Of a stretch of DNA of 64,000 bases, positions 2,960 to 22,927 are shown piece after piece. A program made the position numbers and the translations under genes. The notes below the pieces were generated by a model, which had not been told where the DNA came from, did not search any database, and saw nothing but the letters and a program-made list of their open reading frames with translations. The stretch covers positions 310,001 through 374,000 of the forward strand of contig NZ_FOQO01000004.1 of assembly GCF_900113765.1 (NCBI RefSeq). Direction: 5' to 3'. Position 1 is the stretch's first letter; each line of letters starts with the position of its first letter. Origin of the DNA: Parapedobacter indicus (GTDB taxonomy: Bacteria > Bacteroidota > Bacteroidia > Sphingobacteriales > Sphingobacteriaceae).

Positions 2960-3106
2960 CAATTCCTCTAGATCATTCGTCTCATTATCTTGCATGTCGT
3001 GATATGCGATAAGTACCTAATCAGCTAGTCGTCGTGGTGCTTATTGCTTAAACTCTTCACGGTTGAATTTATTTTTTTATCTTCGTCTACACAAACTTCT
3101 ACCACC

Positions 3107-4654
3107 ATGAAAAAACACCTCAAAGAGGCGATTACGGATTTCAGCGAACGCCTTGCATGCTTTTCCGGGAAGCCTGACATCGTCATGATCATTACCGACC
3201 AGGAACGGGCCACACAACATTTCCCCGAGAACTGGGAACGTGACAATCTAAAGACACTGACCTTCCTGAAACAAAACGGATTCAGCTTTGACCGGGCATT
3301 TTGCAATACATGCATGTGTTCGCCCAGCAGGTCTACACTGTTGACCGGTCTTTACCCTGCGCAGCATCATGTGACGCAAACCCTTACCGAAGGAGGGAAA
3401 TATTCTCCGGGAGAGGTTACGCTAGACAGTTCGATACCTAATGTGGCGCGTATGCTGATTGACAATGGCTACGATGTGCACTACCGTGGCAAATGGCACG
3501 TAAGCAAGGGTGCAGACGGCGGCAGCCCCGATCCATCGGATATCGCTATGTATGGTTTCAGGGGCTGGGAGGCTCCCGATGCGGGGGAAGACACCGCGCC
3601 CGAGAATTTTGGCGGCGGCTTCGCCAACCACGATGGAGCCTATATAAAACAGGCCATTGACTTCCTGAAAAATGTCAGGGAATTGCGCGCGCAAGGAAAA
3701 GGCAAACCGTATTGCCTAGTTCTCTCCTTGGTTAATCCGCACGATGTGCTGTGTTACCCAAGGGGGTTCAAATATGGCTACAACGATGAGTTCCTCAAGG
3801 GCCCAATAACACTTCCCAAAACGGTAAACGAAGACCTTACTACCAACGGCAAACCTGCTGCGCAAGCACAGGTAAAGACCTCCGCTGCCCTAGGTTTAGG
3901 CTTACTCAATACGCCCGAAAAGCAAACCAATTACCTCAACTTCTACGGTAATTTGCTGCGTCTGATCGACACCGAAATCGGTTTCTTCATCGATGAGCTC
4001 TACCGGGAAGTGGAGGGCAGCAAACTGGCCGACCAAGCGCTGGTGATCCGTCTTGCTGACCACGGCGAAATGGGTATGGCACATGGCGGCATGCGTCAAA
4101 AGGCATTTGTAGCTTATGAAGAAGCAATCCGCATACCGATGGTCTTTTCCAACCCGATACTCTTTCCTGAAACAGCTACCTATAAAAGCACCCGTCAACT
4201 GGCTTCACTGATCGATATCGTGCCGACCATCGCGGCTATCACCGGTTCACTCCCACCGGTAGGAGTGCGAGGTACCAACCTTACGCCTTTGCTGAATGAG
4301 GACAAGCCCGTTCAAGAAGCCATTCTATTCACATTCGACGACACAAAAGCAAGCGCCGCTGATAAACCCAGCGTGGTAAAAGCAGCAAACCGGATACGTT
4401 GCATACGCACAGCGGAGTGGAAATACAGCCGGTACTTCGATGCACTTGGCGGATACCCCGAAGAATTTGAATTGTATGACCTGAGAGATAACGGAGCACT
4501 CGAATATCAAAACCTGGTACACGACCCCGCATATGCGGAGATTAGCGCAAAATTAGACAGGTTGTTGCAACAGCAAATAAGACAAAAATTACACATACAT
4601 CCCGAAGCCTTTGATGAAGCTGAATTTATCGAGTGGTATCAAGAGCAGCGATAA
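3107..4654 (+). CDS. Sulfatase (formylglycine type)
   Basis: This is a 515-residue type I sulfatase. The modification motif C71-S-P-S-R75 is intact; Cys71 would be converted to formylglycine. Metal ligands are suggested by the early IITDQE and by LADHGEMGMAHGG in the middle. GKWHVSKG matches the conserved Lys/His region. The frame opens at 3044, but the extra 21 residues are unlike the family, so the ATG at 3107 is preferred. With that start there is no evident signal peptide, which is unusual for this group. A twin-arginine oxidoreductase follows after 92 nt, suggesting a shared role in sugar or sugar-sulfate use. The substrate is unknown. Confidence 0.87.
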   Translation: MKKHLKEAITDFSERLACFSGKPDIVMIITDQERATQHFPENWERDNLKTLTFLKQNGFSFDRAFCNTCMCSPSRSTLLTGLYPAQHHVTQTLTEGGKYSPGEVTLDSSIPNVARMLIDNGYDVHYRGKWHVSKGADGGSPDPSDIAMYGFRGWEAPDAGEDTAPENFGGGFANHDGAYIKQAIDFLKNVRELRAQGKGKPYCLVLSLVNPHDVLCYPRGFKYGYNDEFLKGPITLPKTVNEDLTTNGKPAAQAQVKTSAALGLGLLNTPEKQTNYLNFYGNLLRLIDTEIGFFIDELYREVEGSKLADQALVIRLADHGEMGMAHGGMRQKAFVAYEEAIRIPMVFSNPILFPETATYKSTRQLASLIDIVPTIAAITGSLPPVGVRGTNLTPLLNEDKPVQEAILFTFDDTKASAADKPSVVKAANRIRCIRTAEWKYSRYFDALGGYPEEFELYDLRDNGALEYQNLVHDPAYAEISAKLDRLLQQQIRQKLHIHPEAFDEAEFIEWYQEQR

Positions 4655-21020: not shown

Positions 21021-21034
21021 AAAGAGTTAATCTG

Positions 21035-21070
21035 AAAAAACCGCTTTGGTGTTTACCAAAGCGGTTTTTT
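21035..21070 (+). terminator. Terminator after the small barrel gene
   Basis: A 16-bp stem (A-run plus CCGCTTTGGT against ACCAAAGCGG plus T-run) with a GTTT loop; the 3' arm continues into eight T. Confidence 0.93.
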
Positions 21071-21104
21071 TTATTTCCTAACTTACTACACACTACAATT
21101 CTCC

Positions 21105-21173
21105 TAAAAACGAAAGGTTTCCAAACGGGGAGAATGGAAACCTTTACTAACCAATTATAAACCTAAATTATGA
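21105..21173 (-). ncRNA. Candidate small RNA downstream of nuoD
   Basis: On the minus strand a well-formed promoter (see 21179-21210) would start RNA near 21173. About 28 nt later comes a hairpin with 11-bp perfect arms (AAAGGTTTCCA at 21113-21123 in plus orientation, TGGAAACCTTT at 21135-21145) and an 11-nt loop, followed by CGTTTTTAGG. This is a complete start-to-terminator unit of roughly 65-70 nt with no reading frame. The plus strand of the same piece instead resembles an outer-membrane-gene leader (TTTACTAACCAATTATAAAC then ATG), so a relict leader is the alternative. No match to a named RNA family is claimed. Confidence 0.45.
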
Positions 21174-21178
21174 TGCCG

Positions 21179-21210
21179 CAAAGGTATGCATCATTTATTA
21201 CAAATCAAAA
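21179..21210 (-). promoter_or_regulatory. Strong Bacteroidota promoter beyond nuoD
   Basis: Minus strand TTTTG (21210-21206), then a 19-nt spacer, then TACCTTTG (21186-21179): both boxes match the consensus. The start of the -33 box is only 10 bases from the nuoD stop, and no coding gene follows on this strand before the convergent barrel gene. Confidence 0.7.
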
Positions 21211-21219
21211 TTTATTTTC

Positions 21220-22419
21220 TTAACGATCAACCTCACCTAATACGATATCAATTGATCCCAAAATCGCAACCAAGTCTGCTATTAATATCCCTTTTACCAA
21301 TTCAGGTAATACGGATAGGTTATTAAAACTTGGCCCCCTCGCTTTCACCCGCTTCGGAATATCACTTTTCTCTTGCGTCACAAAATAAAATCCGAGTTCA
21401 CCTTTAGGGTTCTCGGCCCTTACATAGTAATCCTGCGATTTTAAATTCACCTTTTTTGGCACCAATGCACGGGGATCGAAATCCACCGTTCGTTTTAATT
21501 CCTTGGTCAACCGTGCAAGACATTGTTCAATAATCCTTACGGACTCCCTAATTTCATCGACGCGAACCTTAAAGCGGTCCCAGCAATCGCCAGGACTCCC
21601 CTGCTCGCCTTTACCTATGGGAATATCAAACTCAATCTCCGGATAAACGGAATAATTATCCGTCCGTCTTAAATCCCACCTAATGCCCGATGCGCGGAGC
21701 ATTGGACCGGAACAGCCATAATTAATCGCCACATCAGCAGGCAATATTCCAATATTTGCCGTACGCGAAATAAAGATTTGATTCCCGGTAAGAAGCTCAT
21801 CCAATTCGACCAGCTTCGGTTTGAAATAATTTATAAATTCAGCACAGCGGGATTCAAAATCTACCGGCAGGTCATAAAACAGCCCCCCAACCCAAATGTA
21901 ATTATACAGCATCCGTGAACCGGATGCCCACTCCAGCATATTCATAATATGTTCCCGATCCCGGAAACACCACATAAAAGGTGTAAATGCACCGATATCG
22001 ATACCATACGTACCTATGGCTATCAAATGAGAGGCAATACGATTTAACTCGCACACCAATACGCGGATGTATTCAACCCGCTTGGGAATCTGATGATCGA
22101 TGCCCAACATGCGCTCAACACCCATTACAAACGCGTGACTGTTGTTCATCGAAGCCAGATAGTCCATCCGATCGGTAAACGGAATGGTTTTTCCATAGTT
22201 CATGGATTCAGCATGTTTTTCAAAGCAACGGTGCAGATAACCGATATGTGGAATCACCTCTTTTACCAATTCGCCATCGGTAATTAATTGCAACCTGAGC
22301 ACTCCATGGGTGGATGGGTGCTGAGGCCCCATATTAATAACCATTTCCTCGGCGCTTATGGCAGTTAACCGCTCCTCATAGGCTCGCTGTGCCTGTTGAT
22401 AGGTTTTATCTATTACCAT
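21220..22419 (-). CDS. nuoD: NADH-quinone oxidoreductase subunit D
   Basis: This is the 399-residue 49-kDa-type subunit of complex I, part of the quinone-binding peripheral arm. It has [16 protein letters not shown] near the N-terminus, [13 protein letters not shown], and the C-terminal [23 protein letters not shown], all family hallmarks. It is separate from NuoC, unlike the fused NuoCD of enterobacteria. nuoC lies 7 nt upstream on the same strand. The rest of the nuo genes are not in the window, although they usually flank it. Confidence 0.96.
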
Positions 22420-22426
22420 TACTTAT

Positions 22427-22927
22427 CTACTTAATCGGAATACCATGGTACATTTCGGCATCTTCATAGTCCTTTCGCAGCGGATATCCTTCCCAGTCTT
22501 CTGGCAGTAAGATCCGCCGCAAATCCGGGTGTCCTTCAAAATAGATCCCCATCAGATCAAATGCTTCCCGCTCATGCCAGTCAGCTGTCCGCCACACCGA
22601 GCTCACACTGGGCACGGAAGGCAAATTGTCCAGCCGCCGGTCGTTCGGCACGATCACCTTAAGTGTAAGTTGATAATTATACGGAATGGACGCCAAATGA
22701 TAAACGACAGTGAAGGTACCTGCCGGCACACCATCATCGACTGCACTGATGCAGGAAAGAAAATCAAAATAGGTATCCACATGGTCGCGGAGAAACAAAC
22801 ACACTTGTCGTAATAGCAATGATTCGACTACCAATGCAGGTTGCAAGCCCGACGATTCAATAGTGGCTGCTTCGTCCCCGAATTGTGCCGCCAGAAGTGT
22901 TTTCACACGTATGATCAGTTCTTCCAT
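22427..22927 (-). CDS. nuoC: NADH-quinone oxidoreductase subunit C
   Basis: This is the 166-residue 30-kDa-type complex I subunit. Signature: WHEREAFDLMGIYFEGHPDLRRILLPEDWEGYPLRKDY. It pairs with NuoD in the peripheral arm. It lies between pdxH (stop 19 nt upstream) and nuoD on one strand, so a pdxH-nuoC-nuoD transcript is likely. No nuoB or nuoA precedes it. Confidence 0.95.
   Translation of the reverse strand: MEELIIRVKTLLAAQFGDEAATIESSGLQPALVVESLLLRQVCLFLRDHVDTYFDFLSCISAVDDGVPAGTFTVVYHLASIPYNYQLTLKVIVPNDRRLDNLPSVPSVSSVWRTADWHEREAFDLMGIYFEGHPDLRRILLPEDWEGYPLRKDYEDAEMYHGIPIK

Follow-up and report, generated by a model that had tools for sequence, protein, structure and literature searches.

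The window analysed here, a stretch of 64,000 nucleotides from Parapedobacter indicus, contains paired nuoD- and nuoC-type genes (PF00346 and PF00329) at 21220-22927, with a convergent barrel gene (PF13505, plus strand) directly downstream and no further nuo genes there. A predicted small RNA (sRNA) unit lies just behind nuoD, with the following features:

21220-22419, minus strand: nuoD-type gene (Complex1_49kDa, PF00346, E 5.1e-88), upstream of the sRNA on the same strand
21206-21210, minus strand: -33 element TTTTG, read from the sequence, with a 19-nt spacer to the -7 box
21179-21186, minus strand: -7 element TACCTTTG (TAnnTTTG), read from the sequence, its position kept in 32 of 56 copies and its form that of the F. 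psychrophilum sigma-A consensus
21106-21174, minus strand: predicted sRNA of 69 nt, its start inferred from the -7 box and its end from the T-run
21146-21173, minus strand: predicted single-stranded 5' seed UCAUAAUUUAGGUUUAUAAUUGGUUAGU, antisense to a leader with start codon, nearly invariant in 57 copies, its complement enriched at receptor gene starts
21113-21145, minus strand: terminator-like hairpin of 11 bp with loop UUCUCCCCGUU, supported by folding and covariation
21106-21112, minus strand: T-run CGTTTTT, from the sequence and the alignment of copies

These elements agree with the initial annotation, which had proposed a candidate sRNA here: the nuoD-type ORF upstream ends at 21220 on the same strand, the promoter (TTTTG, 19 nt, TACCTTTG) was found at its place, the 11-bp hairpin (21145-21113) is followed by the T-run down to 21106, and no ORF of at least 60 amino acids is present between 21020 and 21220. 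In F. psychrophilum, the sigma-A consensus is TAnnTTTG at positions -12 to -5 (PMC9723704), so the start of the RNA can be placed at 21174, 46 nt past the nuoD stop codon, which gives a length of 69 nt. Folded as a single sequence, the predicted sRNA leaves its 5' part open and closes the hairpin (-14.7 kcal/mol), a result only mildly better than that of shuffled sequences (z -1.23; 25/200 shuffles equally good), and a generic scan for promoters and terminators, which expects hexamers of the TTGACA/TATAAT type and hairpin loops of 3-8 nt, reported neither at the unit. No Rfam family (Rfam 15) exceeds its threshold at the sRNA locus, with only two tRNAs reaching gathering level in the window, and the best weak matches (L10_leader and similar) fall on an adjoining hairpin at 21034-21071. 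The latter is terminator-like for the barrel gene, and on inspection by eye the strand of nuoD and the sRNA carries a T-run there as well. A pseudoknot between AUUCUCC in the loop and GGAGAAU just past the T-run, seen by eye in the window copy, was discarded, being absent from the other aligned copies. That the unit is more than a chance arrangement follows from comparative evidence, namely its copies, the covariation of its stem, the position of its promoter box and its synteny with nuoD.

The plus-strand 24-mer AACCAATTATAAACCTAAATTATG occurs at 15 places of the genome with at most three mismatches (13 exact; reversed control, none), and at all 15 a hairpin follows on the other strand, usually with a T-rich run. 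A covariance model built from 15 own-genome copies (R1) recovers 16 strong matches at E ≤ 8e-8 from this genome, plus two weak matches (E 0.17 and 0.19); the window copy, one of the sequences used to build it, is matched at E 2.0e-14 (window 21101-21176, equivalent to C8:331101-331176). The own-genome copies have a common body and differing upstream DNA. A regulatory role towards the end of the nuoCD transcript, which had been suggested as an alternative, is unsupported, given that the same body is found in 15 other strong copies elsewhere in the genome. The conserved block extends from the predicted +1 to about the T-run, flanks and promoters vary, and the seed, which reads TCATAATTTAGGTTTATAATTGGTTAGT in this family, hardly changes across the 57 copies. 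On one 39.7-kb contig of P. indicus (C9, 6981-25587), five strong copies with mixed upstream types lie within 19 kb.

Beyond P. indicus, R1 matches 223 of 301 sampled genomes of the GTDB family, representing 19 of 25 genera (E ≤ 0.001), with 1 to 15 copies per positive genome among the at most 15 candidates scored in each. Matches become rare in the class sample (14/395 genomes), where ten belong to the same family and the other four are weak (E 1.2e-4 to 9.7e-4). An exact 39-mer is present in 25 stretches of named genomes, comprising 21 from Parapedobacter, two from Sphingobacterium psychroaquaticum and one each from Olivibacter sitiensis and Sphingobacteriaceae bacterium DW12. Within the genus, a search with the nuoD end and the unit, in which the loci were read, shows nuoD followed by the sRNA, both on one strand, in 8/9 genomes, P. 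indicus included; the stretch read from genus genome G003 has nuoD without the sRNA and, by eye, a G+C-rich hairpin instead. Four copies in genus g14 (L197, L199, L202 and L212) stand directly behind a T-arm-like GGTTCGACnCC noted by eye; a tRNA is not claimed there, as ARAGORN and Rfam find none. In G029, a family genome of which 400 kb were read, UUUUCAUAAUUAGUUUUAACCUUAA followed by a strong hairpin at L241:1251-1316 (minus strand) is a weak R1 candidate of a third type (E 0.061). No description of this sRNA family was found in a literature search confined to open-licence PMC papers, and the family is apparently undescribed.

Conservation of the hairpin, which the initial annotation had set as a test, is borne out. 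In 45 aligned copies from P. indicus and related genomes (57 copies minus 13 with another loop length or an arm gap, plus L135), 98.8% of stem cells are paired and nine of the 11 pairs have changed on both sides. The covariation score of 0.514 compares with 0.243 ± 0.015 in 500 shuffles, none of which scores as high, and with 0.27-0.29 in a control in which the partners were slid by one column; the copies are related and not independent. Two stem types dominate, GGUUUCC/GGAAACC (with GGUUUUC and GGUUCCC variants) and GCCCCG/CGGGGC, and enclose the loop AUUCUCCCCGUUU. These sequence comparisons indicate selection on the hairpin at the RNA level. The loop (window 21123-21135) is itself nearly invariant in the 45 aligned copies without known reason, while other copies have other loops. 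Its use as a second seed for receptors was considered and rejected, with loop-complement 6-mers rare in the receptor leaders defined below (0 or 1 of 104 each).

Conservation of the promoter, also set as a test, holds for part of the copies. TAnnTTTG lies 12-13 nt ahead of UCAUAAUUUAGG in 32 of the 56 copies with a readable anchor, compared with nine occurrences at all other offsets in the 80 nt upstream (counted from the listing), and by eye it is present in all eight nuoD-linked copies. However, it is in place in only 6/16 copies of the own genome. Four own-genome copies without the box carry, by eye, TGTAAC and CGTT at sigma-ECF-like spacing, together with a common 5' extension, GTCUUUUCAU. 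An inverted repeat of approximately AGTGTA-N5-TACACT, which looks like an operator, is located in the spacer at -28 to -30, between the -33 and -7 boxes, in 17/56 copies and at -41 in four, and is absent from the window copy; C9:6955-6971 and C19:19671-19687 of the own genome are examples. In its exact form the repeat occurs at two places of the own genome, both of them copy promoters, and the reversed control at one. Given that promoter types differ among copies (-7 box versus ECF-like), several inputs seem to drive one sRNA output.

The reverse complement of the seed, ACTAACCAATTATAAACCTAAATTATGA, resembles a leader with start codon, and the likeness of the opposite strand to an outer-membrane gene leader, which the initial annotation had left to be explained, reflects this complementarity. 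Of 194 PF13715 candidates in the own genome, 150 matches were scored. Gene starts were taken by a simple ORF rule from 60 own-genome stretches (1.17 Mb) rich in PF13715 genes, yielding 104 PF13715-bearing starts (labelled TBDT on this match alone, without plug or barrel criterion) and 689 others. The four most enriched of 1126 TBDT-leader 7-mers (TAACCAA, ACCAATT, AACCAAT and AATTATG) all lie in the seed complement. A perfect seed complement of at least 9 nt at -60 to +25 is present at 24/104 TBDT and 31/689 other starts (p 4.8e-9), whereas dinucleotide-shuffled seeds reach a mean of 3.2/104 and none of 500 attains 24. Among genes with free upstream DNA only, the counts are 21/91 and 15/305 (shuffles, mean 2.9/91, 0/500 as high); the non-receptor genes of this set are likewise above shuffles (15/305 vs a mean of 5.1). 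With the FopS seed of Bacteroides, the own genome shows no signal (2/104). Starts reading ATGAAAA make up 17/104 TBDT and 45/689 other starts in the own genome (p 0.0013), and 7/43 and 39/200 in G207, a genome of another genus of the family that has the sRNA. Examples of receptor start regions with TAACCAATTA, at -21 and -24, are C16:194002-197106 and C26:174911-175528 of the own genome. Two non-receptor genes of P. indicus, C19:62572-63159 and C23:322152-322733, have seed complements of 10-11 nt at -18/-17; by eye they look like ECF sigma factor genes, and regulators of receptor operons may be targets too.

This link is statistical, with individual pairings of only 9-12 nt, and no long single target was found: beyond the copies themselves, the scan gave three matches of 15-18 points, one of them at a TBDT start. 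Word ranks in the own genome weaken when only genes with free upstream DNA are counted (1/500 at k = 6, 17/500 at k = 7), and CCAAAC and ATCCAAA, which lie outside the seed complement, then rank equal or higher. Duplex energy does not separate the seed (AUC 0.601) from the reversed seed (0.606), with 40 shuffles at 0.41 ± 0.037; the top 40 duplexes include eight TBDT genes, where shuffles have a mean of 3.9 and a maximum of 9.

The same counts were made in three further genomes. In G207, the seed complement is found at 9/43 TBDT and 10/200 other starts, which 2/500 shuffles reach, and word ranks for all genes are 6, 0 and 90 of 500 at k = 5, 6 and 7; with free upstream DNA, the counts are 6/35 and 5/96 (p 0.039; reached by 9/500 shuffles) and the ranks 21 and 221/500 at k = 6 and 7. 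G029, which has no R1 match at E ≤ 0.001, gives 5/37 and 5/240 (17/500 shuffles), and the Bacteroides-type genome G372 gives 3/35 and 6/248 for the sphingobacterial seed (79/500 shuffles). Free-upstream word ranks in G029 (20 and 30/500) and G372 (17 and 27/500) are not clearly different, and the four genomes examined have similar ratios of TBDT to other starts. Given these ratios and the signal in G029, the consensus of receptor leaders may be independent of the sRNA, though G029, given its candidate at E 0.061, may be no clean negative. As a positive control, the FopS seed was counted in the FopS-bearing G372 and gave no signal (word ranks 38-116/500; 9-nt count 1/35 vs 8/248); either the method missed the one known case or few such FopS targets are present among the 35 G372 genes read.

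Copies of the sRNA are also present in viral sequences. The exact core AATTTAGGTTTATAATTGGTTAG is contained in 26 IMG/VR contigs (L323-L348), all of which R1 matches (E ≤ 2e-7), with stems unlike the host type. Neighbouring genes were read in two of these: the L330 copy (3138-3210) is flanked by portal and head-morphogenesis genes, with 4 nt separating it from a tRNA-Asp upstream (3061-3133), and the L332 copy (2585-2662) is flanked by integrase and terminase genes. ARAGORN places a tRNA within 10 nt upstream in 3/26 contigs (L330, L341 and L342), the latter two with an unassigned anticodon. Some viral-contig copies could sit in host DNA at contig edges, and blastn returned no match among INPHARED phages or PLSDB plasmids. 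It is possible that phages silence receptors with their sRNA copies.

There is very little doubt that these sequences constitute a genuine sRNA gene family, conserved and present in many copies: the family itself, its structure, the position of its promoter box, its spread and the statistical link of its seed to receptor leaders are all demonstrated. The independent sRNA first proposed at this locus gains support from its promoter boxes, from a 5' part that is conserved and predicted to be single-stranded, and from its covarying terminator-like hairpin, its many paralogues and its conserved place, in the absence of transcript evidence. The best explanation, which is considered probable but well short of settled, is a self-standing Sphingobacteriaceae sRNA gene, counterpart of FopS, that pairs with receptor mRNA starts. 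Transcription would begin near 21174 from a promoter of the Bacteroidota housekeeping type and stop at the hairpin, producing an RNA of about 69 nt made up of a nearly invariant, predicted single-stranded 28-nt 5' seed and a terminator hairpin, and the differing DNA upstream of other copies may feed several signals into this one output. The seed would pair with the start consensus of SusC/TonB-receptor-type mRNAs (ACUAACCAAUUAUAAACCUAAAUUAUGA), to which it is antisense, and such pairing is inferred to block ribosome entry and lower receptor synthesis, as with FopS in Bacteroides, which would probably adjust the set of receptors produced by the cell. Without RNA data, transcription, pairing, repression and the signals driving each copy all remain inferences.

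A less likely reading, still to be taken seriously, keeps the paralogous sRNA family but looks for its main targets outside receptor mRNAs, either at many or other gene starts or in a protein held via the loop AUUCUCCCCGUUU. The shortness of the individual pairings, the excess of non-receptor genes over shuffled seeds, the failure of duplex energy to set the seed apart from its reverse and the unexplained near-invariance of the loop in 45 copies would all be compatible with it. Against it stand the AUG within the seed complement and the position of seed-complement words at the head of the receptor-class list in the own genome, and the loop is no better candidate for a receptor seed, its complement words being found in at most one of 104 receptor leaders.

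The multiplicity of copies in a genome, the cluster of five strong ones on 19 kb of C9 and the copies in viral contigs would suit a short mobile DNA repeat of the MITE or REP kind with an incidental palindrome, but the block has transcript-like boundaries at the predicted +1 and near the T-run, with variable flanks and promoters, stems vary by paired changes and the orthologous place behind nuoD is kept, which together make such a repeat very improbable. Slightly harder still to credit is that the unit is merely the terminator or 3' UTR of nuoCD. Although it comes right after nuoD, in the same orientation, and would end nuoCD transcripts, its body recurs at 15 other strong places, it has promoter boxes of its own, nuoD occurs without it in G003, and the second terminator-like hairpin at 21034-21071 has, by eye, a T-run on the minus strand. 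Least credible is a function of the plus strand, as a relic of a receptor leader or as a short peptide gene from the ATG at 21170: the leader-like sequence with its ATG invites this reading, but the copies differ from one another in sequence and length beyond the ATG, and the order of T-run, promoter boxes and hairpin suits the minus strand.

Extending the preferred reading of a receptor-directed sRNA, a wider and distinctly tentative hypothesis, which we regard as doubtful at present, is that each Bacteroidota lineage has its own multi-copy sRNA antisense to its receptor leader and start codon, with FopS in Bacteroidaceae, the present type in Sphingobacteriaceae and a third hinted at in G029. 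Sphingobacterial copies, some of them placed immediately after tRNA genes, would have been acquired by phages, of which at least one has an integrase gene, and would serve to silence outer-membrane receptors in the course of infection and so exclude rival phages; no RRM-type protein would be needed. If the preferred reading is right, a single sRNA output under several kinds of promoter would preside over a large receptor repertoire (the 150 PF13715 matches scored), the FopS principle would be neither a Bacteroidaceae speciality nor RbpB-dependent, and the viral copies would offer a directly testable case of phages borrowing a host sRNA seed.

Among known systems, FopS of Bacteroides thetaiotaomicron is described as 14 paralogues of 65-70 nt with sigma-ABfr promoters and a single-stranded 5' seed plus terminator, conserved across Bacteroidaceae and also found in a single phage; it blocks translation at SusC start regions and is countered by the RRM protein RbpB (PMC11697453). 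The FopS model (RF04319) aligns to the window RNA over model positions 12-71 with 12.7 bits against a gathering threshold of 56 (E 6.6), has no match in the own genome at E ≤ 0.01, and matches 18/295 genomes of the class, eight of them over threshold. Seed letters also differ, FopS having GTGTTTTTCATGGTATTAGATTTAAGGTTAAT plus a hairpin where the sphingobacterial family has TCATAATTTAGGTTTATAATTGGTTAGT, a departure from the FopS R1' seed, and the sphingobacterial sRNA is further distinguished by its conserved 13-nt loop region and by many copies without a -7 box. A search for RRM_1 proteins (PF00076), the RbpB type, found none in the own genome, G016 and G029 and three in G372; a partner protein of another type is not excluded. 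Two other Bacteroides sRNA families are longer than the present sRNA and far under threshold on it: BTnc231 (RF04180; 19.1 vs 80.4 bits), the consensus of which starts ACGUUUUUUUCAUAGAGAUUUAGAUUUAAGGUUAG on a similar 5' plan, and GibS (RF04182; 18.3 vs 115 bits), which the FopS report credits with an R1 seed in common with FopS and a second seed, R2 (PMC11697453). Rfp18 of Flavobacterium, also a conserved Bacteroidota sRNA, has a third stem-loop predicted to pair with metalloprotease mRNAs (PMC9723704). By the tests made, the sphingobacterial sRNA is not a FopS, and common ancestry is open; as far as anatomy shows, it is FopS-like. Its 16 strong own-genome copies agree with the copy number of FopS, 12-15 paralogues per genome, and the canonical sigma-ABfr promoter is present at the window copy (-7 box in 32/56 copies overall, 6/16 own). 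UUUUCAU in the seed, opposite AUGAAAA, occurs in many sphingobacterial copies and in FopS sequences, and SusC start regions are targets of both, by experiment for FopS and by inference for the sphingobacterial sRNA. The two have in common multiple copies of about 65-70 nt, a sigma-ABfr-type promoter, a 5' seed, a 3' terminator hairpin and copies in phage DNA or viral contigs.
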